NCBI GenBank assembly: GCA_027449025.1
Contig: DAIDMK010000003.1
Coordinates: 62,001 to 126,000, forward strand
Direction: 5' to 3'
Source of the DNA: Lutibacter sp.
GTDB lineage: Bacteria; Bacteroidota; Bacteroidia; Flavobacteriales; Flavobacteriaceae
DNA: 64,000 nucleotides
Numbering within the stretch: position 1 is the stretch's first letter; every line of letters starts with the position of its first letter. This document shows, in pieces, positions 1,430 to 27,430 of this stretch. A program made the translations under genes and the position numbers. The notes under the pieces are model-generated. The model did not search any database, was not told the origin of the DNA, and saw nothing but the letters and a program-made list of their open reading frames with translations.

Positions 1430-1546
1430 ATGAAATGGGCATATCAAATTTTGAAACATAAGGAAATAGTAATTGGGAATATGTTTATAGACCTCTTTAT
1501 GGGGCTAAACAGCATTGGTTACAGCTAAAAAATAAAATTTAAATTG
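1430..1546 (+). repeat. Degenerate copy of the start-codon-linked repeat
   Basis: This stretch begins ATGAAATGGGCATATCAAAT and ends with a block (GTTACAGCTAAAAAATAAAA, then TTTAA) that matches the ends of the 88-base units at 13277-13454 and 21695-21866. As in those units, the terminal TAA is followed by four bases (ATTG) and then the ATG of a real gene, here purN at 1547. The middle has diverged and is longer. It keeps an open frame of 32 codons (1430-1528) that stops earlier than in the intact units, so it probably no longer encodes the same peptide. Confidence 0.6.
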
Positions 1547-12153: not shown

Positions 12154-13140
12154 ATGAATTTAAAAAAAATGTACTTGAAAAGTGCTATTCTGCTTTTACT
12201 TGTAGCTTTTGTAGGTTGTTCGTCAGATGATGGTAATGATATGGGAAACTGGGTTGAAAGCTCTTCTTTTGATGGATACTCACGGGCTAACGCCGCCGCA
12301 TTTGTAATTAATGACAAAGGCTATATAATTGGAGGATATGATGGGGATGATTATATGTTTGATCTTTGGGAATATGACAAAAATGGTGATTATTGGGTGC
12401 AAAAAGCTGACTTTCCAGGGGTTCCAAGAACTGCCGGTGTAGGGTTTTCGCTTAACGGTAAAGGTTATTTTGGTACAGGATATGATGGTGATGACGAAGT
12501 TGGGGATTTTTGGTGCTACGATCCTTCATCAAATATATGGACTCGAAAAGCAGATTTTGCCGGTACAGCAAGAACTGGCGCCATTGGTTTTGCGGTTTCT
12601 GGAAAAGGCTATATTGGCACTGGTTATGACGGAAGCGAATTGAAAGATTTTTGGAAATATAATGATGCCACAAATGAGTGGACTCAATTATTTGGATTTG
12701 GCGGTAATAAGAGAAAAGATGCAACAGTTTTTGTTATTGATGACAAGGCCTATGTAGGAACTGGAATACAAAACGGAAGGTATCAAAATGATTTTTATGT
12801 ATTTGAAGGATCCTCTGAAACTTGGAAAAGGTTAAAAGATCTAGATGATCCGGATGAAGATTATGAAATTTTATTGGCCAATGGTGCTGGATTTTCATTA
12901 AATGGATTTGGCTATATAACTACAGGTGAAGCATCAGGTATTTCTACAAATTTATGGGAATATAATCCCTTAACTGATAAGTGGGATGACAGACCTGATT
13001 TTGAGGGAGCTGCCCGGCAAGATGCTAATGCTTTCAGTTTTTCCGATAAAGCTTTTGTTTTAATGGGAAGAAGCGGTGGCTATTATTTTGATGATAATTG
13101 GGAATATCGTCCAAATGAAGAAAGTGATGAAGACGATTAA
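12154..13140 (+). CDS. Kelch-repeat lipoprotein
   Basis: Lipoprotein signal (MYLKSAILLLLVAFVGCSSDDG) followed by about six kelch-type blades. Each has a GKGY...GxGYDG...FWxYDP...W pattern, for example NGKGYFGTGYDGDDEVGDFW and SGKGYIGTGYDGSELKDFW. A beta-propeller outside the cytoplasm is expected. The tail is acidic (NEESDEDD). A strong terminator follows at 13180-13207. A shortened, dead second copy of this gene lies at 14981-15252. Ligand unknown; as part of a cassette with a two-component system it could be the sensed or regulated surface protein, which is inference. Confidence 0.85.
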   Translation: MNLKKMYLKSAILLLLVAFVGCSSDDGNDMGNWVESSSFDGYSRANAAAFVINDKGYIIGGYDGDDYMFDLWEYDKNGDYWVQKADFPGVPRTAGVGFSLNGKGYFGTGYDGDDEVGDFWCYDPSSNIWTRKADFAGTARTGAIGFAVSGKGYIGTGYDGSELKDFWKYNDATNEWTQLFGFGGNKRKDATVFVIDDKAYVGTGIQNGRYQNDFYVFEGSSETWKRLKDLDDPDEDYEILLANGAGFSLNGFGYITTGEASGISTNLWEYNPLTDKWDDRPDFEGAARQDANAFSFSDKAFVLMGRSGGYYFDDNWEYRPNEESDEDD

Positions 13141-13179
13141 TGCCTTTAAAAGTAGGTTAGTTTAAGTTAAACAAAATAT

Positions 13180-13207
13180 AAAAGCCAAACATTTTTGTTT
13201 GGCTTTT
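13180..13207 (+). terminator. Rho-independent terminator after the kelch gene
   Basis: AAAAGCCAAACA and TGTTTGGCTTTT pair perfectly over 12 bases around a TTTT loop, 40 bases after the stop codon. The T-rich right arm provides the U tract. Confidence 0.85.
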
Positions 13208-13276
13208 ATTACTAAAGAGTTTTTGATTAACTAAATTTTTAATAACGACGCTATATAAATTAATTGATAACTGATG

Positions 13277-13360
13277 ATGAAACGAGCATTTCAAATTTTG
13301 ACAGGTAAGGGAATGTTGAAGAGCGAACAGCATCTGTTACCGCTAAAAAATAAAATTTAA
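13277..13360 (+). CDS. Start-codon-linked repeat, unit 1: possible 27-residue cistron
   Basis: An 84-base open frame starts ATG AAA CGA and ends TAA, followed by ACAG and the ATG of unit 2. The predicted peptide begins MKRAFQILTGKG and ends EQHLLPLKNKI. The same frame, length and end motifs recur on the opposite strand at 21695-21866 (MNRASQIL...EQHLLPLKNNI), where about a quarter of the peptide differs but the frame is kept. That favours translation, yet the high DNA similarity of the two ends could also be due to repeat spread alone. No known family. It lies in the 318-base space between the kelch and DUF4907 genes. Confidence 0.5.
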   Translation: MKRAFQILTGKGMLKSEQHLLPLKNKI

Positions 13361-13364
13361 ACAG

Positions 13365-13454
13365 ATGAAACGAGCATTACAAATTTTGACAGGTAAGGGA
13401 ATGTTGAAGAGCGAACAGCATCTGTTACCGCTAAAAAAAAAAAATAAAATTTAA
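13365..13454 (+). CDS. Start-codon-linked repeat, unit 2: possible 29-residue cistron
   Basis: This is a near-identical tandem copy of unit 1 (MKRALQILTGKG start, LLPLKKKNKI end). It is six bases longer through expansion of an A-run, which adds two codons and keeps the frame. Its TAA is followed by ACAG and then the ATG of the DUF4907 gene at 13459. The AT-rich end (AAAATAAAATTTAAACAG) therefore supplies the whole leader of that gene. Confidence 0.5.
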   Translation: MKRALQILTGKGMLKSEQHLLPLKKKNKI

Positions 13455-13458
13455 ACAG

Positions 13459-13770
13459 ATGAAAAAGTGGATAGCTATTTTTTTTGTTTTAATTATAACT
13501 TCAATACTTGTTGTTAAACTGGGTAGCACTTCAACCAGTGGTTATAAACTAGAAGCATTTAAAGTCGATAATGGATGGGGATACACAATCTTAAAAAAAG
13601 AGAAGGTCATTATTAGACAGGACATCATTCCTGGAATCCAAGTTAAAAAACCATTTGCCACTAAAAAAGATGCTAAAATTGTTGGTGAATTAATGATTGA
13701 AAAATTAAAAAATAAAGAAATACCGACTATTACATACAAAGAACTTCAAACTAAGGGGATAGTTTTATAG
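13459..13770 (+). CDS. DUF4907-family small exported protein
   Basis: A 103-residue protein with an N-terminal signal or anchor (KKWIAIFFVLIITSILVVKL). The rest matches the DUF4907 pattern: FKVDNGWGYTILKKEKVIIR, IPGIQVKKPFATKKDAKIVG and a Lys-rich end. Function unknown. In Bacteroidota this family usually occurs beside kelch proteins and LytS/LytTR pairs, as here. A dead second copy lies at 15254-15472. The tandem repeat units directly upstream replace any ordinary leader. Confidence 0.75.
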   Translation: MKKWIAIFFVLIITSILVVKLGSTSTSGYKLEAFKVDNGWGYTILKKEKVIIRQDIIPGIQVKKPFATKKDAKIVGELMIEKLKNKEIPTITYKELQTKGIVL

Positions 13771-13825
13771 GCAATAATCCATAGTTAGAGGTTATTTTTA
13801 ATAAAACGACTAATTGAAAACTAAC

Positions 13826-15088
13826 ATGAATAATAAACGCAACATATTTTTGCATATACTATGTTGGTTCATAGTCATCTTAATAGTTCAAGTCAATTTT
13901 TATCACAAGTTTAATTATTTTCTTGTGAATGAGTTTTTCTATTACAGATTATTTTTAAACATTGCTATTTTTTATTTAAATTATAGTTTCTTGGTTCCCA
14001 GGTTATTGTTAAATAAAAAAAGTGGGTTATACGCTTTTGTTTCCCTGACTCTTATTGCTGTTTTAATTTTTGTGTACCAAAATTTATTACCTTCAATTTC
14101 CTTAATTCCTACTTACAATAATCAAGATGGATTTATGGATCTTGAAAATGGGCATAATGCCATTAAATCAAACAGCTCCTATTTTGCCAGTTTTATACAA
14201 GGGGTACTTATTTTTTTATTATTTGCAATTAGTTCAGGCATTAAATTGTTAAAAGAAAGCTATGCCGAACTTAAAATTTCCAAGGAAAAATCAGAAGAAA
14301 GCAACCGATTAAAAACTGCATTTCTATCCAATATTTGCCACGAAATTCGAACCCCGATGAATGCCATTCTAGGCTTTACTGAACTATTAAAAGAACCACT
14401 GGTGACAGTCGAAAAGCAACATAAATATCTTGAAATCATTGAGAAAAGCGGCGTAAGGCTGCTGACTGTTATCAACGACATTGTTGACATTTCCAAAGTG
14501 GAGTCAGGACAAATGGAAGTTTTTATTTCAGAGTTTAATATTTTAGACCAGATAAAGGAAGTCCATGACTTTTTCAGCCCTGAAACGCAGAAAAATGGAA
14601 TTTTGCTAAACATAAAAAATTCATTGCAGTCAAGTGAAAGTACAATTAAGTCAGACAATCATAAAATAAATGCAATACTTGTTAATTTGGTAAAAAATGC
14701 CATTAAGTATTGTGATAAAGGAATTATTGAGATTGGGATTGAAAGGAAAGAATCAATGCTTAAATTTTATGTAAAAGACACAGGTGTAGGCATTGCTAAG
14801 GATAGACAAAAAGCCATTTTTGACCGTTTTGTACAAGCCGACATTGAGGATATAAAGGCATTACAGGGATCCGGTTTAGGGTTGTCTATTTCTAAAGCCT
14901 ATGTAGAGATGCTTGGAGGTAAAATTTGGGTTGAAAGCGAACCGGGGAATGGCGCTACTTTTTATTTTACTATTCCTGGCGATATGGAGAACAGGAATGA
15001 AAGCTCTTCTTTTGAAGGCTATATACGGGCAAACTCTGCGGCTAATGTAAAAAATGACAAAGGCTATGCAGTTGCCGGAAATAACTAG
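13826..15088 (+). CDS. Chimeric membrane histidine kinase (LytS-like sensor, HisKA core, kelch tail)
   Basis: Residues 1-145 hold four or so membrane segments and closely match the N-terminus of the LytS-type kinase at 15528 (shared blocks ILHILCWFIVILI/FLHILCWFIVILI and LNIAIFYLNYSFLVP). The core then changes type: HisKA with His172 in NICHEIRTPMNAILGF, followed by a HATPase with NLVKNAIKYCDKG, DTGVGIAK and GSGLGLSISKAY. After FYFTIPG the frame runs into a kelch-gene remnant (ESSSFEGYIRANSAANVKND) and stops. ATG 13826 is preferred to the TTG at 13814. It is probably still a kinase; the last 33 or so residues are not native. Confidence 0.8.
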   Translation: MNNKRNIFLHILCWFIVILIVQVNFYHKFNYFLVNEFFYYRLFLNIAIFYLNYSFLVPRLLLNKKSGLYAFVSLTLIAVLIFVYQNLLPSISLIPTYNNQDGFMDLENGHNAIKSNSSYFASFIQGVLIFLLFAISSGIKLLKESYAELKISKEKSEESNRLKTAFLSNICHEIRTPMNAILGFTELLKEPLVTVEKQHKYLEIIEKSGVRLLTVINDIVDISKVESGQMEVFISEFNILDQIKEVHDFFSPETQKNGILLNIKNSLQSSESTIKSDNHKINAILVNLVKNAIKYCDKGIIEIGIERKESMLKFYVKDTGVGIAKDRQKAIFDRFVQADIEDIKALQGSGLGLSISKAYVEMLGGKIWVESEPGNGATFYFTIPGDMENRNESSSFEGYIRANSAANVKNDKGYAVAGNN

Positions 15089-15252
15089 GATGATGATAGG
15101 TGTGATTTTTACGAACCTTAGGCATTTCTATGCATTTATGGGGATATAATCACTTAACTGATACTTGAGATAATAGACATGATTTTGAGGGTGCTGCACA
15201 GTAAAATATTAATGCTTTCAGTTTTTCAATAAAGCATTTGTTTTAATGGAGG
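14981..15252 (+). pseudogene. Remnant of a second kelch lipoprotein gene
   Basis: From GATATGGAGAACAGG onward the DNA follows the kelch gene from about 12238. An internal deletion of some 600 bases then brings it to the segment matching about 12930-13080 (TATAATCACTTAACTGATAC against TATAATCCCTTAACTGATAA). Stop codons and frameshifts interrupt it. Its first 108 bases are read in frame as the tail of the preceding kinase. With the DUF4907 remnant that follows, it marks a tandem duplication of the cassette. Confidence 0.82.
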
Positions 15253-15253
15253 G

Positions 15254-15472
15254 AATTAGAGACATTTAAAGTCTATAATTGATGGGGTTTTCAATATTTA
15301 AAGAAATAATACATTTATTTAATAACATATTATTCTGTGAATTCCAGCCAAAAAATATTTACCACCTAGAAGACGCTGTCATTGTTGTTGAATTGATGAT
15401 TTAAAAATTAAAAAAATAAAAACACCTAGTATTTCCTACAAAGAACTTCAAATTAATGGCGTAATTTTATAG
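15254..15472 (+). pseudogene. Remnant of a second DUF4907 gene
   Basis: The DNA tracks the DUF4907 gene (13540-13770) from ATTAGAGACATTTAAAGTC to the shared end TACAAAGAACTTCAAA...GTAATTTTATAG, but several stops and indels destroy the frame. The kinase gene that follows starts after the same spacing and leader sequence (TTTTAATAAAAC...GATTGAAAA) as the first kinase gene, which fixes the order of the duplicated segment. Confidence 0.82.
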
Positions 15473-15527
15473 GCGATATTCACTATTTTAAAATTAATTT
15501 TAATAAAACAGTTGATTGAAAATTAAA

Positions 15528-16577
15528 ATGAAAAATATACCCTCTGTAATTTTGCATATACTGTGCTGGTTCATAGTTATCTTAATAATTCTAAGCACTT
15601 TTTATAATAAGTTTAATTATTTTCCTGTAGATGGCTTTTTTTATTACAGATTGGTTTTAAACATTGCTATTTTTTATTTAAATTATAGTTTCTTGGTCCC
15701 TAAATTATTGTTAAATAAAAAAATTGGAATGTATGCATTTGTGTCTTTTGCATTTATAGGCTTATTTATTTTTGTGTATCAAAATATGTTGCCTTCAATT
15801 CCTATTATGTCAGATTTTAACAACCAACAACAATTGGTGGATCTTGTGAATGGACCCAATGACCTTGAAATAAAAAACGCCTTTTTAGCCAATTTTATTC
15901 AAGGAATCGTTATTTTTTTATTATTTGCAATTAGTTTAAGCTTTAAATTATCTATTGAATGGTATAAAAACGAAAAAATTAAAAACTTAATCAAAACGCA
16001 AAAGATAAATGCCGAATTGTCATTCTTAAAATCACAGTTAAATCCACACTTTTTATTTAATACCTTAAACAGCATTTATTCATTGGCTAATAAAAAATCT
16101 GATGATACTACTGAAGCCATTATTACATTATCGGAATTAATGCGATACATGATTTATGAAACCAACAAAGAGTTTGTAACGCTTCAAAATGAGATAGATT
16201 ATTTAAAAAACTTTATATCTCTTCAAAACCTGCGGTTAAAAGAGTCTAGCGGAGTTAGATTTAATGTTAGGGGCAAACTGGATTATAATATTGAACCTTT
16301 GCTTTTAATATCATTTATTGAAAACGCTTTTAAATTTGGTACGGATTACACGGGAAAAACGAATATTAATATTGAGATAAAGGTTGAAGATGATTTTTTA
16401 AGCTTAAAGGTCAGTAATTATATATCTTTAAAAGAAAAAAGTAATCTCGACTCGGGAATTGGAATAGAAAACATTAAAAATAGGTTAAACATACTATATC
16501 CAAATACCCATACTTTAAATATTGAAGAATCTGACAAATTGTTTAAGGTTGAATTATTGTTAAAATTAAAAAAATGA
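15528..16577 (+). CDS. LytS/YehU-type sensor histidine kinase
   Basis: Membrane sensor with about four hydrophobic segments in residues 1-142, then the His_kinase (LytS-type) domain with His174 in QLNPHFLFNTLNSIYSLA, and a HATPase region with LISFIENAFKFG and SGIGIENIKNRL. ATG 15528 is chosen over the TTG at 15516. It overlaps the LytTR regulator gene by four bases (ATGA), so kinase and regulator are translationally coupled partners. The signal sensed is unknown; the adjacent kelch and DUF4907 genes suggest an envelope cue. Confidence 0.9.
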   Translation: MKNIPSVILHILCWFIVILIILSTFYNKFNYFPVDGFFYYRLVLNIAIFYLNYSFLVPKLLLNKKIGMYAFVSFAFIGLFIFVYQNMLPSIPIMSDFNNQQQLVDLVNGPNDLEIKNAFLANFIQGIVIFLLFAISLSFKLSIEWYKNEKIKNLIKTQKINAELSFLKSQLNPHFLFNTLNSIYSLANKKSDDTTEAIITLSELMRYMIYETNKEFVTLQNEIDYLKNFISLQNLRLKESSGVRFNVRGKLDYNIEPLLLISFIENAFKFGTDYTGKTNINIEIKVEDDFLSLKVSNYISLKEKSNLDSGIGIENIKNRLNILYPNTHTLNIEESDKLFKVELLLKLKK

Positions 16578-17284
16578 TGAAGTGCATAATTATTGATGAT
16601 GAGCCCTTAGCTTTAGAACTATTGGAAGATTTCGTGTCTAAAGTTCCTAATTTAAAACTAGTTTCATGCTGCTCAAATGCAATTGAAGCAGTATCAATTT
16701 TACAAAATAATAAAATAGACTTAATTTTTTTGGATATTGAAATGCCTGATTTTTCGGGTATTGAGTTTATAAAATCCTTAGAAGCTAAGCCATTATTTAT
16801 TTTTACAACTGCTTATTCCCATTATGCCATTGAAGGGTTCAATTTAAATGCCGTGGATTATTTAGTAAAACCAATTCCTTTTCACCGTTTTTTAAAAGCA
16901 GTTAACAGAGCACAAGAGCTTTATTCTTTAAAAAAAGAAGAGAATTTGCCTTCCATTAAAACTTTAAGCCCCCTAAATTTTATTTTTGTTAAATCAGATT
17001 ATGAGAACATAAAGTTGAATTTTGACGACATTAAATATTTTGAAGGCTTAAAAGATTATATAAAAATATTTTCCACCTCACATAAACCGATTTTGACCTT
17101 AAGCAATTTCAAAAAAATTGAAGAAAAATTGCCCGATGATATATTTATTAGAGTGCATAGGTCATACATAGTTTCATTAAAGCACATAAATTCCGTTCAA
17201 CGAAACAGAATACTTATTGATGGAGTTAGGATTCCAATCGGGCAAAATTATAAAGATGAATTTATTAAAAAAATTGGTGGGTAG
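16574..17284 (+). CDS. LytTR-family response regulator
   Basis: Residues 1-120 form a receiver domain with IIDDEP near the start, phospho-acceptor Asp54 in IFLDIEMPDFSG, and Lys in VDYLVKPIPF. Residues about 135-236 form a LytTR DNA-binding domain (FVKSDYENIKL, IRVHRSYIVSLKHI, IPIGQNYKDEF). It is the cognate regulator of the kinase at 15528 by overlap and family pairing, and possibly also of the chimeric kinase. It ends 33 bases from the convergent PycTM gene with no clear terminator between. Confidence 0.95.
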   Translation: MMKCIIIDDEPLALELLEDFVSKVPNLKLVSCCSNAIEAVSILQNNKIDLIFLDIEMPDFSGIEFIKSLEAKPLFIFTTAYSHYAIEGFNLNAVDYLVKPIPFHRFLKAVNRAQELYSLKKEENLPSIKTLSPLNFIFVKSDYENIKLNFDDIKYFEGLKDYIKIFSTSHKPILTLSNFKKIEEKLPDDIFIRVHRSYIVSLKHINSVQRNRILIDGVRIPIGQNYKDEFIKKIGG

Positions 17285-17317
17285 CCGTTTTTTGATAAGA
17301 TTCGCTTTTCATTTAGT

Positions 17318-17893
17318 TTATAAGTCTATAGTCTGTAAAACATAGGCAATTGTTGCGACTAGTCCAATCAAAAAAATAATGACAGAAAGAGTCAAAATTC
17401 TTTGTTTAATACTGATAACTTTTCCTAAGAAATAAAGATCACTAATCATTTCATCATAAATGTTTTGTCCTTTTAACATAATACGCTTAAATTCTTGTTG
17501 AAACTCCTCTAAAGATTCTTTCGAGAAATTTTCAGCATATAGCGCCCCCTTATAACCACTTTTATTAAATGATTTACCAAAGTAACGATAAGGCAACATA
17601 CTAAACAAAGCAAAAATCATAGATAGCATACTGCTAATTACCAATATTCTGGTTCCTGTGTTAACTGTAACTACTTTTGTTCCATAATTGAAAAAATGAA
17701 TACCAAAAAAAATAGACGTTATAATAGAATTTACGGTAAGTATAATTTTGGCCTTATTATCAACCATTTTTAAAAGGGTGTAATGATTTTTTGAAACATT
17801 CCTGAAAAGAGTTTGTATGCCTCGAGCATCAAATTTTTGAAGTTTTTCTTTCTTTATTTTTGGTGAGTTGGTTTTTTTATCTTCGTTTTTCAT
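17318..17893 (-). CDS. PycTM-like (DUF5706) membrane protein, Pycsar-effector type
   Basis: A 191-residue protein with three hydrophobic segments (about residues 49-67, 84-103 and 167-187). It carries the PycTM/DUF5706 landmarks RNVSKNHYTLLKMVDNKAKIILTVN... (first part RNVSKNHYTLLKMVDNKA), NFSKESLEEFQQ and MISDLYFLGKVI. In known Pycsar systems such proteins disrupt the membrane on binding a cyclic pyrimidine nucleotide made by a neighbouring cyclase. No cyclase is visible in this window. A remnant of an ATP-cone nuclease gene overlaps its start by 17 bases, so its natural partner seems to be that nuclease. Role in defence is inferred. Confidence 0.75.
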   Translation of the reverse strand: MKNEDKKTNSPKIKKEKLQKFDARGIQTLFRNVSKNHYTLLKMVDNKAKIILTVNSIITSIFFGIHFFNYGTKVVTVNTGTRILVISSMLSMIFALFSMLPYRYFGKSFNKSGYKGALYAENFSKESLEEFQQEFKRIMLKGQNIYDEMISDLYFLGKVISIKQRILTLSVIIFLIGLVATIAYVLQTIDL

Positions 17894-18060
17894 GATTATT
17901 GCTTTTTGTATTATTTAATTTTTTAGCTTCCTCAATTAATTAAGTGCATTATGACAGGTAATATTTTAATCTTTTAGGACTTCAAGTTTTGAATAAAATT
18001 CCTAAACTAAGATAACATTATTTTTAATTAATAGCCTATTTTCCAGTTTTTTTCCTGTTT
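17877..18060 (-). pseudogene. Remnant of the 3' end of an ATP-cone nuclease gene
   Basis: The sequence matches the last 170 or so bases of the intact nuclease gene (18838-19000): TTTTTTAGCTTCCTCAAT, then GCATTATGA, TCTTTTAGGAC and TTATTTTTAATTAAT in the same order. Read on the minus strand it gives NNVILV...IEEAKKLNNTKSNNHEKRR with stops and frameshifts. The frame ends inside the PycTM gene, a 17-base overlap. The 5' part of the gene has been lost next to the transposase remnant. Confidence 0.77.
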
Positions 18061-18165
18061 TCAACACAAACTTTAATTAAAAAACCTAAGCATCATAAAA
18101 AGAACAAATTAAGAAAAAAAAGGAGTGGTTTTGCGTGCCCCAGCACTTTTTTTTATCTTTAACTA

Positions 18166-18770
18166 ATGTTTGTTTGGAAGAAAAAATCCATCGTGGCGTA
18201 ATCAGCAGTCAGGTATTTACTAAATTAGATGAAAAGTCCAAACGGGTCAATATTATTAGAGTCTTAAGGATGCAAGAGCATAGGTTCACTAATCATAAAA
18301 GCAGAGAAATTTATTGATAGCTATGGTGGTCAACAGCCATTTTATTTTTCGACAGGAAACACACGATTATCAAAATCCATAAATTGTTTTAGGACAAGAG
18401 TATGGTAAGTACAGATGGTTACTCCTTGGCATATGAGAATTTTTAAGGTATAAGTTTGAATACTAACGATGCGTCTTGTTATTGACGCCTTTAAAGCCAA
18501 ATACAAACTTGATAAATTAATTATTGTGGCAGACTCTTGATTATTGCTTAACGATAAACTATGCGGCATATAAGGTTTATAAAGAACTAGAAAGACAACT
18601 CAAGGAAAAGAAATCGAAAATAAGCTCAGAAAGCCATTGATATTGCTTAGCCTGTTTATCAAATTACCGTGAAAACTGACAGTAACTATGTAAATCATAT
18701 TCTGCTTTTAACTGAAGAACAAAATCAATTATCGAGATTATTTGACTTTGGATGACTTCCTGTCGAAAAC
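18166..18770 (+). pseudogene. Decayed IS1634-type (IS4 superfamily) transposase
   Basis: Joining frames on the plus strand gives pieces of a DDE transposase: GVISSQVFTKLDEKSKRVNI, then LIIKAEKFIDSYGGQQ, then DGYSLAYENF, VIDAFKAKYKLDKLIIVADS (frames joined), AYKVYKELERQLKEKKSKIS and ILLLTEEQNQLSRLFDF. At least five frameshifts and stops plus a large internal deletion are present. No terminal inverted repeats or target duplication are obvious. It lies between the two halves of the duplicated nuclease/PycTM module. Confidence 0.65.
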
Positions 18771-18775
18771 AGGTG

Positions 18776-18857
18776 TTTGTATCCCGCTAAAATCAAGTTT
18801 TTGCAGTTTATCTTTCTTTATTTTTGATGAGTTGGTTTCATGATTTTTGCTTTTCAA
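18776..18857 (-). pseudogene. Remnant of the 5' end of a second PycTM gene
   Basis: From a TTG at 18857 the minus strand reads LKSKNHETNSSKIKKDKL then QKLDFSGIQT, against MKNEDKKTNSPKIKKEKL then QKFDARGIQT in the intact protein. The match stops abruptly at the transposase remnant. The start lies inside the 3' end of the intact nuclease gene (overlap 18838-18857), the same arrangement as at 17877-17893. Only some 25 codons remain. Confidence 0.72.
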
Positions 18858-19707
18858 GATTATAGCTTTTTGTATAATATAATTTTTTAGCTTCCTCAAT
18901 AACTTTAAGCGCATTATGATATGTGATATTTAAATCTTTTAGGACATCAGGATTTGAAAAAATTTCTTTAACTAAAATAACGTTATTTTTAATTAATTCC
19001 ATTTTTTCTTGTTTTTTTAGATTTGTTAAAACAGTAATTGGGTACAAACCAAATTCATCTATATTCTTGCTAATTCCGTTATTTTTTGGGTAATCCCAAC
19101 TAAACAAAGTTAAGTCAACGCTCTTGGCATAGTTTATGGCATCTTCTGTAAATCTTGTGTTGGTAACCAGCCATCCTTGTTTTAATTGGGTAGTTTTCCC
19201 AGAACTATTCCACTTCTTTTGAACATCAAGAAATCTTGAGTTAATATATAGTGGAATTTTAACATCACATACAGTTTTTGGACTCGAATGAAATTTACAT
19301 TCTATGGCATACGTATTTCCGTCTTTCTCGGCCAAAACATCAATTTCATGAGAAACACTTATGCCTGGTAATATTACGCTGACCTTGGTGGTATATCCCT
19401 TTTGTTTTAATAAGGCTCCAATTAATTTTTCAAAAGGGTAGCCTGAGGGACCTAAGTCAAAAATTGCTCTTTTTAAACTATATTTTGAAGCAGAGACTTC
19501 ATTGAGTTTTTTTAATAAAAAATAGGCCTTTCCATAAATCACATCAGATGATATTCCGTCGTAAATCATAGGGTGAATACTTTTTACAATGGTTTGGATT
19601 TCTTGATTAGTAGCACCACTTCTTTTAAGAGATTTTTTAAGTTTTTGTATTTCGAATGGCTCTAGCTCACCCGAATTCTTTTTTACGGTTATTATCTTTT
19701 TATCCAT
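18838..19707 (-). CDS. ATP-cone domain fused to a PD-(D/E)xK nuclease domain (paralogue 2)
   Basis: Same build and strong identity to the protein at 7471: ATP-cone in residues 4-88 (KNSGELEPFEIQKLKKSL, then VSASKYSLKRAIFDLGP), nuclease core with Asp123 in HEIDVLAEKDG and Glu136/Lys138 in YAIECKFH, then LKQGWLVTNTRFTEDAI and a helical tail. The fold suggests cleavage of nucleic acid under control of ATP or dATP levels, but this has not been seen for this family to my knowledge. Its 3' end overlaps the remnant of a PycTM start by 20 bases, marking a coupled two-gene module. It lies 61 bases downstream of the ABC transporter operon on the same strand. Confidence 0.86.
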   Translation of the reverse strand: MDKKIITVKKNSGELEPFEIQKLKKSLKRSGATNQEIQTIVKSIHPMIYDGISSDVIYGKAYFLLKKLNEVSASKYSLKRAIFDLGPSGYPFEKLIGALLKQKGYTTKVSVILPGISVSHEIDVLAEKDGNTYAIECKFHSSPKTVCDVKIPLYINSRFLDVQKKWNSSGKTTQLKQGWLVTNTRFTEDAINYAKSVDLTLFSWDYPKNNGISKNIDEFGLYPITVLTNLKKQEKMELIKNNVILVKEIFSNPDVLKDLNITYHNALKVIEEAKKLYYTKSYNLEKQKS

Positions 19708-19768
19708 ATCGTCTTCTTTTGTTTACTACATCATTATATTTTTTAGTACTATCTATTATAAATTCTTG

Positions 19769-20455
19769 TTAAGTAGTGTGAATTAGTTTCCCATCAGCCA
19801 ATTCTATAATTCTATTGGAGGCTTTTGCAAAATCATTATCGTGCGTTACAGCAATAATAGTTTGCCCAAATTCTTTTGATAACTGATGAAATGTTTCAAG
19901 CACAATACTTGTGTTTTTACTGTCTAAATTACCTGTGGGCTCATCACACATAATAATTTTCGGATGGTTTATTAAAGCCCTTGCGATGGCCACTCTTTGT
20001 TGTTGCCCTCCAGAAAGTTTAGATGCTTGTTTCAATGCTTGATTTTTTATTCCTAAAAGATCCAATTTTTGATAAGCTTGTTCCTCTATTTCTTGAGGCG
20101 AGAATTTTCCAAGTTTTAATGCTGGAATCATTACATTTTTTAAGCATGTAAATTCTGGTAGGAGATAATGAAATTGAAACACAAATCCAATATTTTTGTT
20201 TCTGATGGCTGCAAGGTAATTGGGTTTTTGGCCGGTTATTTTTTCGTCGCCAATAAATAATTCGCCCTCATAATCGGTATCCATAGTGGAAAGAATATAT
20301 AATAAAGTCGATTTTCCGCTGCCAGATTTTCCAACCATCGTAATAAATTCACTTTCAAATACTTTAAACGAAACATCATCCAAAGCTTTAAATTTTACGG
20401 GTTGGTAAAAGTATTTACCTATTTTTTTTGTTTGAAGAATAACTTTTTTTTCCAT
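19769..20455 (-). CDS. ABC transporter ATPase of the LolD/MacB type
   Basis: A 228-residue ATPase with Walker A GKSGSGKST, signature LSGGQQQRVAIARAL, Walker B IIMCDEPTGNLDS and switch His in VTHD. It powers the FtsX-like permease at 20455, with which it shares one base of a TAATG stop/start overlap. Together with the adaptor and TolC genes upstream it forms a tripartite exporter at the inner membrane. Substrate unknown. Confidence 0.95.
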   Translation of the reverse strand: MEKKVILQTKKIGKYFYQPVKFKALDDVSFKVFESEFITMVGKSGSGKSTLLYILSTMDTDYEGELFIGDEKITGQKPNYLAAIRNKNIGFVFQFHYLLPEFTCLKNVMIPALKLGKFSPQEIEEQAYQKLDLLGIKNQALKQASKLSGGQQQRVAIARALINHPKIIMCDEPTGNLDSKNTSIVLETFHQLSKEFGQTIIAVTHDNDFAKASNRIIELADGKLIHTT

Positions 20456-21690
20456 TATTTTCTGAAGATTTCAATAGGATCAATTTTTGCGGCGCCAATT
20501 GCAGGAATATAGCCAGCTCCTAAAGTGATTAAAACGCCGAGAATAGCACCAATAAAAAATATTGGAGACTCATAGCCGATAGGGAAATATTCTCTGTCAC
20601 CACCAATATAAATACCGCTTACAAATTTAATTAAGCCAGCAGCCATCAGCAATCCAAATGATGTTCCTATTATTCCCATAATCAACGATTCTTTTAAAAA
20701 GATATTGATCACATCTTTTCCAGAAAATCCTGTTGCTTTAAGAATGGCAATATCATTTAGTTTTTCTTTGATAGTCATATTGATGATATTATAAATTCCG
20801 AATGCTGCAACCAATAAAATGGCTAATGAAATTGAACCAAACATAACCTGCCTTGTTTTTTTGTTAGACATGGATTGTTCATTTGCCGCTTGCCAGTCTT
20901 CTACTTTATAAATTGTCGAATTTTGGAGCTGTTTTGAAAATTTAGGAGCATCGTTTGGATCTTCAATGTTTACCAAAATATCTGTCAAATAACTTGAGCT
21001 TTTTTTCATCAATTGTTGTGATATGGCTAAATTTATATATGATTTAGTTAAATCGATATTCGAATTGCTGGTTTTAAAAATACCTTCTACTTTCATCATT
21101 TTTACCACACCAATAGATGAAGTAATATTTATATTGTCATGTAATTGAATGTTCAACTTTTCGGCAATTCCAACACCAATTAGTATTCCGTTAGATGTTG
21201 ATAAGAGATTTCTTACATCTCCTGCCAACATGGTAGATTCTATATTAAACATATCATTGGCTTCCAGTATATTTACACCAGAAGCTTCGCCATTTATTTG
21301 GGATATACCATTGTTATAAAAAATATTAACAGAAACTTGCGGAGTTACGGTAACAATATCGTCTTGTTTTTTTAAATCGGCTATAATTTTTTCAGGATTA
21401 ACAAGTGTATTGGATAAGTTGGCAATTTTAGGATTAATTATTACCGTAGTGTAGTCTGGTTTTATTTGCTTAATTAATGGTCTGCTTAAAGTATCATCTT
21501 GATATATTCTTAAATGAGGCTCGGCTTTAAACAGCGCTTCGTCAGAATAGTTATTAAATCCAACAACTAATGAAATCATAAAAATAAATATTCCAATCCC
21601 TACGGTTACACCCATGGCTGCAATCATTGTTTGCCTTTTGCGTGTAAGTAAGTGCGTTAAAGCGATCTCTGAATTTACATTTAGTTTCAT
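20455..21690 (-). CDS. FtsX/MacB-family ABC permease
   Basis: A 411-residue permease with one membrane segment near the N-terminus (GVTVGIGIFIFMISLVVG), a large periplasmic domain (about residues 45-285), and three C-terminal membrane segments, ending AAKIDPIEIFRK. This is the MacB/LolC build without the fused ATPase, which is the next gene. Its ATG follows directly on the two repeat units at 21695-21866, with ACAG between, so its leader is provided by the repeat. Confidence 0.93.
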   Translation of the reverse strand: MKLNVNSEIALTHLLTRKRQTMIAAMGVTVGIGIFIFMISLVVGFNNYSDEALFKAEPHLRIYQDDTLSRPLIKQIKPDYTTVIINPKIANLSNTLVNPEKIIADLKKQDDIVTVTPQVSVNIFYNNGISQINGEASGVNILEANDMFNIESTMLAGDVRNLLSTSNGILIGVGIAEKLNIQLHDNINITSSIGVVKMMKVEGIFKTSNSNIDLTKSYINLAISQQLMKKSSSYLTDILVNIEDPNDAPKFSKQLQNSTIYKVEDWQAANEQSMSNKKTRQVMFGSISLAILLVAAFGIYNIINMTIKEKLNDIAILKATGFSGKDVINIFLKESLIMGIIGTSFGLLMAAGLIKFVSGIYIGGDREYFPIGYESPIFFIGAILGVLITLGAGYIPAIGAAKIDPIEIFRK

Positions 21691-21694
21691 CTGT

Positions 21695-21778
21695 TTAAAT
21701 GTTATTTTTTAGCGGTAACAGATGCTGTTCGCCATTAATTATTCCTTTTTGTGTCAAAATTTGTGATGCTCGGTTCAT
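21695..21778 (-). CDS. Start-codon-linked repeat, unit 2 of the export operon: possible 27-residue cistron
   Basis: An 84-base open frame (MNRASQILTQKG... ending EQHLLPLKNNI) runs from ATG 21778 to TAA. It is followed by ACAG and the ATG of the permease gene at 21690. It differs from the neighbouring unit at only three or so bases. It shares both end motifs and exact length with the units at 13277-13454. Confidence 0.5.
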   Translation of the reverse strand: MNRASQILTQKGIINGEQHLLPLKNNI

Positions 21779-21782
21779 CTGT

Positions 21783-21866
21783 TTAAATGTTATTTTTTAG
21801 CGGTAACAGCTGCTGTTCGCCATTAATTATTCCTTTTTGTATCAAAATTTGTGATGCTCGGTTCAT
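21783..21866 (-). CDS. Start-codon-linked repeat, unit 1 of the export operon: possible 27-residue cistron
   Basis: An 84-base open frame (MNRASQILIQKG... ending EQQLLPLKNNI). Its ATG overlaps the TGA stop of the adaptor gene (ATGA, 21863-21866), so it sits exactly where a coupled downstream start codon would be. Its TAA is followed by ACAG and the ATG of the next unit. In an ancestor without the repeats the permease ATG would probably have had the same ATGA overlap. Confidence 0.5.
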   Translation of the reverse strand: MNRASQILIQKGIINGEQQLLPLKNNI

Positions 21867-22963
21867 TTTATTTTATCGGCTATAATAATGGTATTTTCAT
21901 CTAATCCGCTAAGTATTTCTGCCCAATCATTAGAAATAAAACCTGTTTCAACAATTATTTCATCGCCTCCTTTTAATTTAACTTTATTGCCATATCCAAG
22001 ATAATTTCGCGGAATCACTAAAGCATTATTTTTATTTTCTATAACAATATTTCCTTGGAGTTGGGTTCCGGAAATATTAAAGTCTAATTTATTTTCAAAT
22101 GCTACTTTGCAATAAAACGATTGTGTTTGTTCATCGAATGCCGGATATATTTCGGTCACAATTCCATTGTATGTTTTTTGTAATTGCGTGTTTAGTTGAA
22201 TGATTACGGCTTGTCCAAGTTTTACTTTGGAAATATTGCTTTCATCAACACTTAACAAGGCATACAGTTTTTCCTGGCTTCCTATTACTGCGATAATGTC
22301 TCCTTTTCTAATATAATCGCCTAATTCTTTTCTCAGCTCATATACTTTTCCGCCAACAACGGCTTTTATTTCGTTGTAATTTTTGGAAACGCGATTCGCA
22401 TCTTTTTGAGATTTTTGTATAATTAATTCTTGGTCGGCTTGTTGTTTTAGCAGTTTATAATTTTCCTGAAGCGACAGAAAATTGGTTTTGGAATTGTCTA
22501 GATTCAGCTTCATGTTTTCATATTCCAATTTTGAGACACTGTTCAATTCATATAATTTTCTATAGCGGGCTTCTTGCTTTTCGTCCTGTATAAGTTTTTG
22601 TTTGGCGAGTTCAAGATTAATTTCCGCTTGTTTAAGGGCAGGAGCGTTTGGGTTTGTGTTGGCAGCTGCAATAGTTAACAATTCATCAGCACTTTGGGCG
22701 TTAATAATACTTTGCTCATTGTCTACAATGGCCAATAATTGACCTATTGTTACAATATCTCCCTCATCAATATTCAAATTTTTGATATAGCCATCAGATA
22801 AGGAAGTCAAATTATATTGATTCTCAGGTACAAGAACCCCCGAGGCAAAAACAGTTTCTGTAACATCTTTGCGAATTGGTTTGGTTTCAGTTATTTTTTT
22901 CCCGCAAGAACTCACTAAAATCAGGACTGTAAAAAAGAAGATGGTTTTTATTGAATCTTTCAT
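21863..22963 (-). CDS. HlyD/RND-type membrane fusion lipoprotein
   Basis: Periplasmic adaptor of 366 residues with lipoprotein signal (FFFTVLILVSSCGKK). It has split biotinyl-lipoyl halves (GYIKNLNIDEGDIVTIGQLL and YELRKELGDYIRKGDIIAVI) around a long coiled coil (about residues 75-195), then a beta-barrel region. It joins the inner-membrane permease to the TolC channel. It overlaps the TolC gene by four bases (22960-22963) and the first repeat cistron by four bases. Confidence 0.9.
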   Translation of the reverse strand: MKDSIKTIFFFTVLILVSSCGKKITETKPIRKDVTETVFASGVLVPENQYNLTSLSDGYIKNLNIDEGDIVTIGQLLAIVDNEQSIINAQSADELLTIAAANTNPNAPALKQAEINLELAKQKLIQDEKQEARYRKLYELNSVSKLEYENMKLNLDNSKTNFLSLQENYKLLKQQADQELIIQKSQKDANRVSKNYNEIKAVVGGKVYELRKELGDYIRKGDIIAVIGSQEKLYALLSVDESNISKVKLGQAVIIQLNTQLQKTYNGIVTEIYPAFDEQTQSFYCKVAFENKLDFNISGTQLQGNIVIENKNNALVIPRNYLGYGNKVKLKGGDEIIVETGFISNDWAEILSGLDENTIIIADKIK

Positions 22964-26421: not shown

Positions 26422-27324
26422 TTAAAACCTTAAAATTTCAGTCATCAAACCAAAACGAATGGTATCAATTTGATGATCAAAGTAAATATTGTAATAATCC
26501 ATGCCATGGTAAAATTGGACAAACAATCCGATATCTTCCAAAAATTTTGGATGATAGTAAAATGTTAGGCGGGCATTTAGCCGTTTTATATCAAAAGTAT
26601 CCTGATTATTTATATTGTCTAACATCAAGGTAGATTCTGCCTTTAATGAGAAATTGGCCTTTCGACTTTTACTAGAATCTTCATCCACAGGAAGTTTATA
26701 AGCTATAAAAGTATTGTGCCAGCGCAATCCGCTGTATCTCCCCTGCATTTCATCCAGCATCCAGCTTTTAGGATGCATTTCAACAGAACTTTTAAAAAAT
26801 TTGAAAGCATTTAAACGATTGCTAAAAGATGATTTAATCAATCCAAATTCAACAAAATTAGTGGCGAAATTTCCAGTCATCAAATTTATAGTTCCATCTT
26901 CTTCGTTATAGAAAGTACCATCTTGACCGTTTGAATGGTGTGCAAATCGACCGAACAAAGTCAGTTTCTTTGAGGCTAGTTTGTTTCCTGTTAAAAAATA
27001 AAGTGTTAGTTGTGGTATATAGCTGGGCGTTCTCACGGGATATGAAGTTTCATCATACATCCTGATAATAATTTGACCTGTAAGAACTCCCAATAATCGG
27101 GAATCTTTACGCTCCCTAATTTTAAAACTGGGACTTACATTTGCTTCAAACATAAGCGGTTCTATATTACCAAAATCAAAAGGAAATGTTACATAGCTAT
27201 CACCTTGATTAATCTGCGCCATTTTATCAAGATCAAGGATTGCTGTGGTATCCACGTTTGATTGTGCAAGAGCAAGGTTTGCAATAAAACCAATTATTAA
27301 CGAAAGCCGGCTATATATTTTCAT
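26422..27324 (-). CDS. Outer-membrane protein, possibly phospholipase A1-like
   Basis: Signal peptide (SRLSLIIGFIANLALAQ) and a strand-rich body ending in YFDHQIDTIRFGLMTEILRF with a C-terminal Phe, as in outer-membrane barrels. FGRFAHHSNGQDG has the His-x-Ser-Asn-Gly spacing of the active site of outer-membrane phospholipase A (His142, Ser144 in E. coli). The rest is too diverged for me to confirm the family. The gene starts four bases after the degenerate repeat copy at 27325-27430. Confidence 0.55.
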   Translation of the reverse strand: MKIYSRLSLIIGFIANLALAQSNVDTTAILDLDKMAQINQGDSYVTFPFDFGNIEPLMFEANVSPSFKIRERKDSRLLGVLTGQIIIRMYDETSYPVRTPSYIPQLTLYFLTGNKLASKKLTLFGRFAHHSNGQDGTFYNEEDGTINLMTGNFATNFVEFGLIKSSFSNRLNAFKFFKSSVEMHPKSWMLDEMQGRYSGLRWHNTFIAYKLPVDEDSSKSRKANFSLKAESTLMLDNINNQDTFDIKRLNARLTFYYHPKFLEDIGLFVQFYHGMDYYNIYFDHQIDTIRFGLMTEILRF

Positions 27325-27430
27325 CTACTTAAATTTTATTTTTTAGCGGCAACAGCCGCTAGCTTGTCTGCCGGGAGGCAGGTTCACCATTCATCATTCA
27401 TTTGTATCAAATTTGTTATGTTCTTTTCAT
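27325..27430 (-). repeat. Degenerate copy of the start-codon-linked repeat
   Basis: On the minus strand it begins ATGAAAAGAACATAACAAAT and ends GTTGCCGCTAAAAAATAAAA TTTAA followed by GTAG and the ATG at 27324. Its ATG shares a base with the TAA of the DUF2141 gene (TAATG). Stop codons break the frame after four codons, and a GC-rich insert (CCTGCCTCCCGGCAGAC) replaces the middle. It therefore no longer encodes the small peptide but keeps both boundaries. Confidence 0.62.

Follow-up and report, generated by a model that had tools for sequence, protein, structure and literature searches.

Two direct 88-base units separate the gene for the adaptor from that for the permease of an ABC exporter, on the minus strand at positions 21691-21866 of a 64,000-base stretch of Lutibacter sp. 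DNA (contig DAIDMK010000003.1, positions 62,001 to 126,000), here called the window. The two units differ from each other at 2 of 88 bases and give a tandem score of 348. The array and the genes that enclose it, in the direction of transcription, are as follows.

21863..22963, minus strand: periplasmic adaptor, upstream gene (TIGR01730 RND_mfp, 107.3 bits against a cut-off of 94.9; NCBIfam, passed)
21779..21866, minus strand: unit 1 (5' unit), which starts ATGAACCGAGC and whose ATGA provides the TGA stop of the adaptor
21691..21778, minus strand: unit 2, whose TTTAAACAG end abuts the permease start
21685..21690, minus strand: target hexamer ATGAAA, codons 1-2 of the permease, intact
20455..21690, minus strand: ABC permease, downstream gene (best model TIGR02212 lolCE, 134.1 bits, below the cut-off of 362.45)

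The ATPase of the exporter is closest to the LolD model, but under its cut-off. The initial annotation had described two 88-base units that look inserted exactly at a start codon, and the units are confirmed by their coordinates, the tandem score and genome-wide matches. The described junctions are present in the sequence as well: the ATG of the first unit (21866-21864) shares bases with the adaptor TGA stop as ATGA, and the last unit has an in-frame TAA followed by ACAG, four bases, and then by the permease ATG at 21690. Both units are open frames of 27 codons, which is not general in the 88-base family. We interpret the array as, very probably, two copies of a non-autonomous mobile element of ~88 bases that inserts in a single orientation immediately 5' of ATGAAA; sequence comparison provides strong evidence for insertion and for the hexamer target.

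Removal of both units would join adaptor and permease through ATGA, and exactly this junction is present in relatives. A close permease (84-95% identity) allowed the junction to be compared in seven genomes, including that of the window (G000; G and L numbers denote compared genomes and fetched loci, respectively). In G007 and G002 the junction is unit-free and the two genes overlap by ATGA, which runs straight into the permease, and G034 carries four units at the same place. G014 has a unit-free junction of different form. The contig of G001 begins ~200 bases 5' of the permease, in a stretch that has no recognised unit and reads ATAAACAG where it meets the permease, and the contig of G048 breaks off inside the permease gene. 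The initial annotation had proposed looking in related species for an empty site of this kind; the outcome was positive, and with filled and empty alleles at eight further loci it supports the view that an element carrying an ATG of its own inserted exactly at the start codon.

The window array belongs to a dispersed family. A blastn search with it returned 50 places in G000 (best 40 of 147 candidates scored), a 25-base left-end pattern matches there at ~93-97 places and a right-half pattern at 60 (both with up to 3 mismatches), and neither reversed pattern matches at all. The tandem score and these many matches against none reversed rule out a chance repeat. A profile scan covering the window plus 55 stretches that surround matches (of 57 fetched, two lie within the window and were excluded) identified 94 units in 64 arrays. 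With 111 contigs from named records added, the set rose to 325 units in 221 arrays, comprising 147 single units, 53 doubles and 21 arrays of three to six; later analyses used 237 arrays, after further loci were added and duplicates dropped. Unit lengths of 86, 87, 88, 89, 98 and more bases were seen. The window has the family at three further places.

13277..13458, plus strand: second array, 2 units, directly 5' of the ATGAAA of a 103-aa open reading frame (ORF) at 13459
1430..1543, plus strand: degenerate unit, 5' of a 189-aa ORF at 1547 that begins ATGATACGT
27328..27430, minus strand: degenerate unit, 5' of the ATGAAA of a 300-aa ORF at 27324, with extra palindrome-like sequence mid-unit

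Of 146 units from multi-unit arrays, 59 are most similar to a unit of their own array, 46 to one in a different array of that genome and 41 to one from a different genome; both local duplication and fresh insertion at a gene-proximal ATGAAA fit the growth of arrays. The same-array fraction would also be expected if a tandem repeat had merely grown locally by slippage, with no transposition involved. However, more than 200 arrays at unrelated genes have a common sequence and junction, and empty sites exist; slippage as the sole explanation is contradicted by both, and we give it practically no credence.

Across the genus, 85 of 170 sites have an ortholog in the fetched loci of another species. 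A filled ortholog was found for 75 of the 85 and an ortholog scored as unit-free for 25, of which at least three are false pairs (two to L109, which has an altered unit, and one to L037, which has an N gap). Nine loci, grouped by hand (174; 104+25; 147+149; 0+1; 63+105+119; 19; 69+205; 227; 165), have both filled and empty alleles whose left flanks match at an identity of 0.72 or more, the threshold being the 95% value from 300 random pairings; #52 and #199 were excluded because their left flank is formed by another repeat. In the best pair, L147 and L144, 38 of 40 flank bases agree up to the ATG and the units are the only extra sequence. The empty allele reads ATGAAA at six of the nine loci.

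The same hexamer is found on the right of nearly all arrays. Among the 200 of 237 arrays that could be scored (37 have no CAG end or meet a contig end or N), exactly ATGAAA abuts the clean right end in 184; the other hexamers are ATGAAT (4), ATGAAG (4), GTGAAA (3), TTGAAA (2) and ATCAAA, ATGAAC and ATGACA (1 each). ATGAAA is the most frequent start hexamer, opening 225 of 686 ORFs. By simple ORF rules, which underlie the gene calls for all position, occupancy and overlap counts, 168 of the 237 arrays lie at a gene start, 14 before another unit, 18 at a contig end or N and 37 elsewhere. The last group includes terminator-like sequences containing ATGAAA (L046, L119, L167), and part of it may be starts of small genes. 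At L046 and at two arrays of L140, both neighbouring genes are on the opposite strand, which disfavors insertion at the RNA level. Because arrays occur at terminator-like sites and antisense to genes, it is a DNA hexamer that is recognised rather than translation. The start-codon reading of the initial annotation is supported, with the recognised feature refined to ATGAAA; its interpretation as a whole, which included a leader-peptide option, is supported in part.

Occupancy of ATGAAA was counted over the window and 111 named loci, most of them picked for carrying a unit, so that the percentages are inflated and only ratios are meaningful. Occupied hexamers make up 80 of 230 at gene starts, 29 of 213 in other non-coding DNA, 11 of 1014 within genes on the same strand (starts as called) and 2 of 344 within genes in antisense. 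Gene starts therefore exceed other non-coding sites with an odds ratio of 3.4 (p 3e-7), an excess that may reflect either selection or target choice. The low occupancy within genes is compatible with selective removal.

The boundaries of the element follow from a comparison of left and right hexamers in 201 arrays, the left hexamer being taken from the last unit. Where the right hexamer is not ATGAAA (18 arrays), the left one is ATGAAA in 13; where the left is not ATGAAA (37 arrays), the right one is in 32. A non-ATGAAA hexamer is shared by one pair only, and its right copy belongs to a further unit. The left variants recur (ATAAAA 14, ATGAAC 10, ATGAAT 7) and therefore seem to travel with the element. 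Since the two hexamers vary independently, a site-dependent target duplication is rejected and the element can be written as ATGAAACGAGC...ACAG with its own ATGAAA, placed 5' of an untouched target ATGAAA. In the 204 left flanks, positions -12 to -10 and position -2 are rich in A, as though the genes' own leaders persist. Of the traits of classical (DDE) miniature inverted-repeat transposable elements (MITEs), neither evident inverted termini in the consensus nor a site-following duplication was found, and the element has a trait of IS200/IS605-type MITEs: a fixed short target on one side, in one orientation and not duplicated.

A hexamer at both ends could also mark ATGAAA as the crossover core of a site-specific recombinase (a tyrosine recombinase, integron-like), for which precise excision would yield the empty site. 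Against this, left ends are more variable than right ends and clear inverted core sites were not seen by eye; we consider such a recombinase improbable.

Insertion by the proposed element would leave the flanking proteins intact. The upstream stop survives because the element begins with ATGA, and the downstream protein is unchanged because the element ends before ATGAAA. Among 141 gene-start arrays with upstream sequence long enough to judge, the first ATG forms an ATGA overlap with the preceding stop in 15 and a one-base overlap in 12. The suggestion in the initial annotation that translational coupling is preserved holds at the level of the DNA, in which the stop of the upstream gene and the ATG of the downstream gene are both kept. 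Genes downstream of arrays include homologues of coaD, dapA, asd, aspartate kinase, ackA and rlmH, all exceeding the curated cut-off; several of these are usually essential. The last 20 bases of the element are A-rich, and in the RNA fold of one window unit only four of them pair, whereas the DNA fold pairs part of them. The A-rich end may serve as a translation leader. Ribosomes of Bacteroidia are reported not to recognise Shine-Dalgarno sequences (PMC9976891).

The initial annotation had also raised a leader-peptide control module, in which each unit would act as an upstream ORF and the translation of its short peptide would control the gene that follows. Units do start with ATG, those of the window stay open to a TAA four bases before the next ATG, and frames of 20-30 codons occur in 92 of 280 ATG-bearing units. 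However, 129 of the 280 stop at codon 5, unit lengths vary, and copies lie at terminator-like sites and antisense to genes. With no conserved short frame among the 280 units, a leader peptide is rejected for the family, and a peptide module is highly improbable as an account of the array.

Structure is likewise poorly conserved. The unit has a visible hairpin, GCGAACAG-CAT-CTGTTACCGC, but in an alignment of 347 units its base pairs decay with no compensatory changes (at columns 48-66, for instance, 41% are standard pairs), and the upper stem is retained in 132 of the 232 units that have all columns. A window unit folds little better than its shuffles (z -1.43 as DNA, -0.62 as RNA). The conserved subterminal hairpins of IS200/IS605 were not found, the folds of one unit containing no strong second hairpin. 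A search of window positions 13000-22500 against Rfam returned two matches, both below the gathering score and neither overlapping the units.

These data bear on the possibility that the units are functional cis-regulatory DNA or RNA elements, defining a regulon with a common leader and kept by selection. Both the excess at gene starts and the filled orthologs at 75 of 85 sites, which indicate that insertions are often common to species, speak for it. The hairpin is not conserved, however, and no Rfam match covers the units of the region searched; in addition, orthologous genes occur both with and without a unit, and seven named downstream genes have no common theme, as judged without a statistical test. 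On balance we regard a regulatory element as unlikely.

Other repeats accompany the family. Palindromic sequence occurs inside some units at the position of the hairpin; a palindrome-like CCTGCCGGCAGG-type sequence is located mid-unit in L229, L231, L244, L089 and L115 and at window positions 27328-27430, as though another repeat family had entered the hairpin. A second unit type, ATGAAACGCC..., is interleaved with 88-base units in G000 and, mainly, in one other genome. A second repeat type, ATGAAACGCCTACAACA...TTGACAAATAAAAAACAATAAAAAATAGCAA, adjoins the 88-base unit in the seeds seen (16 exact seeds, with loci including L020, L024, L059, L073, L144, L166 and L232), and its 20 profile matches comprise 12 in one named genome, 7 in G000 and 1 in a third. 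Just 3' of the arrays in L033 and L062 are sequences beginning ATGAAATGTGC or ATGAAATGCTT that resemble other or decayed unit types.

As far as searched, the family appears to be restricted to one genus. The left-end pattern matches in 24 of 38 Lutibacter genomes, with 2 reversed matches in total; 13 of the 38 are repeat-rich (29-139 places) and 25 are repeat-poor (0-7). Nothing above chance was found outside the genus in 199 Flavobacteriaceae genomes, which, beyond two of the genus, gave 9 matches spread over 8 genomes, each with 3 mismatches, and 3 reversed. Twelve genomes from other families of the order gave single weak matches in 2 (E ~2e-4), and collections of plasmids, phages and viral contigs gave zero matches to the unit. 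Among the matches listed, the titles are Lutibacter, unassigned Flavobacteriaceae, Flavobacteriia or Bacteroidetes, and one assembly filed as Gelidibacter; one locus, L129, is of isolate origin (Lutibacter oceani). The search patterns were derived from G000 copies, and diverged relatives may escape them. A description of the 88-base family was not found in the open-licence literature, a search that did not extend to subscription papers and preprints.

If the element is non-autonomous, it would be mobilised in trans by some transposase. All 13 rich genomes have Y1 transposase domains, as do 7 of the 25 poor ones (p 1.6e-5, ignoring kinship and with several poor genomes fragmentary or broken), a weak link that is a correlation by genome only. 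Read on the bottom strand, the element lies 3' of TTTCAT, and an element 3' of its target is the usual layout for this enzyme class. Of the possible mobilisers, we tentatively favour a single-strand enzyme of the Y1 (HUH) type that works on the bottom strand, with TTTCAT as target and the element 3' of it, as the most likely type, although at less than even odds. Membership among Y1 elements is weakened because the hairpin is not kept and a parent element was not found among the fetched loci. Of 18 stretches fetched at left-end matches of G000 outside the first loci, all but one carry the unit body, in some cases altered, and in that one, L233, the left end is followed by other sequence, without a transposase. 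Weak Y1_Tnp matches were also seen in long ORFs (942-1212 aa between stops) in L193, L195, L204 and L212, which belong to genomes G049, G013, G037 and G000.

One group of transposases, which we labelled RAYT-like (after the tyrosine transposases associated with repetitive extragenic palindromic, or REP, sequences), is found in 9 of the 13 rich genomes and in 2 of the 25 poor ones (p 2e-4), as would be expected if the units were members of the REP/RAYT system moved by a resident enzyme. Yet of four RAYT-like genes whose full surroundings were read, the three in G000 adjoin other palindromes, the hairpin of the unit has no GTAG-type foot, and the group was not found in the rich genomes G034, G002, G014 and G015 (G014 being 78% and G015 62% complete). 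Cognate palindromes flanking a RAYT gene were not found either in the loci fetched around Y1 matches; a unit was seen only in front of one such gene, at L213:12018-12105 (G001), directly before its GTGAAA start, as before any gene. REP/RAYT membership is in our view unlikely.

Several observations weigh against a mobile element of the proposed kind: (i) At three of the nine loci the empty allele reads ATGGAG, ATGAAG or ATGACA, not ATGAAA. (ii) The fetched loci, both those of G000 and the 50 around Y1 matches, show no copy with the same ends around a gene. (iii) A single Y1 subfamily common to all 13 rich genomes was not found, and units occur in only 2 of 50 loci fetched around Y1 matches, namely L213 and L222, the latter with two units more than 1 kb from the Y1 gene. 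(iv) The hairpin expected for a Y1 enzyme is whole in only 82 of the 232 units with all columns. (v) Copies in G000 diverge by 16% on average, and just 2 pairs of identical units were found across different arrays of one genome; given these values, movement of the element may be over by now.

We propose the following mechanism for the insertion of this element. Its left end copies the gene start that is most frequent, and its right end is rich in A, so that insertion at a start codon would spare both flanking proteins, and the downstream gene would gain a new initiation region from the A-rich end. Selection would retain copies at gene starts and in non-coding DNA and purge those within genes. 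Further copies may enter the same gene-adjacent ATGAAA, causing arrays to grow, with local duplication probably contributing too.

Among known systems, the element is like MITEs, REP sequences and bacterial interspersed mosaic elements, and IS200/IS605-derived MITEs in being short, dispersed, non-coding and uneven in copy number, in having empty sites and in presumably being moved in trans. Unlike these, the 88-base unit has no evident terminal inverted repeats or site-following target duplication, and has a strict, mostly start-codon hexamer target and an end that copies it. The IS200-like elements of the genus have right ends ending in TTCAT in 6 of 8 loci (GATACC..TTCAT in L179, L180, L181, L183, L199 and L200; no match in L182 and L201), like the bottom-strand end of the unit, a weak likeness in that the pattern required TTCAT; they differ from the unit in their transposase, strong terminal hairpins and other left ends. 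HEARO/IscB-type elements, which are said to insert next to ATGA, have a similarly short target able to overlap a start codon, but they span hundreds of bases and include a structured RNA and, often, a gene for a nuclease, whereas the unit is 88 bases long and has no Rfam match in the region searched. The nearest published family consists of the TAACTGA direct repeats known in Beggiatoaceae, some Cyanobacteria and Bacteroidetes, for which a role in translation has been proposed (PMC4679880). They too are direct repeats 5' of starts, mostly in one orientation, and they also precede presumably essential genes; as described in that source, they are seven-base units in runs, without an 88-base body, start-codon copy or ATGAAA target.

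The 88-base elements could form a class of their own, selfish elements that live on gene starts and are moved by an enzyme of undescribed kind or specificity, a classification we put forward with reserve. If this is true, the recognition site of the element would be the commonest gene start of its hosts, its 5' end would mimic a start and its 3' end would be a ready leader, so that copies could stack before essential or overlapping genes without altering any protein. Mobile DNA is expected to shun or harm gene starts; this family does the opposite, with dozens of copies per genome, preceding coaD, dapA, asd and similar genes and also lying within four-base gene overlaps. The filled and empty alleles across related species amount to a natural leader-replacement series, which makes testable the leader length that genes need, coupled translation across 88-base insertions and the enzyme that would read ATGAAA.
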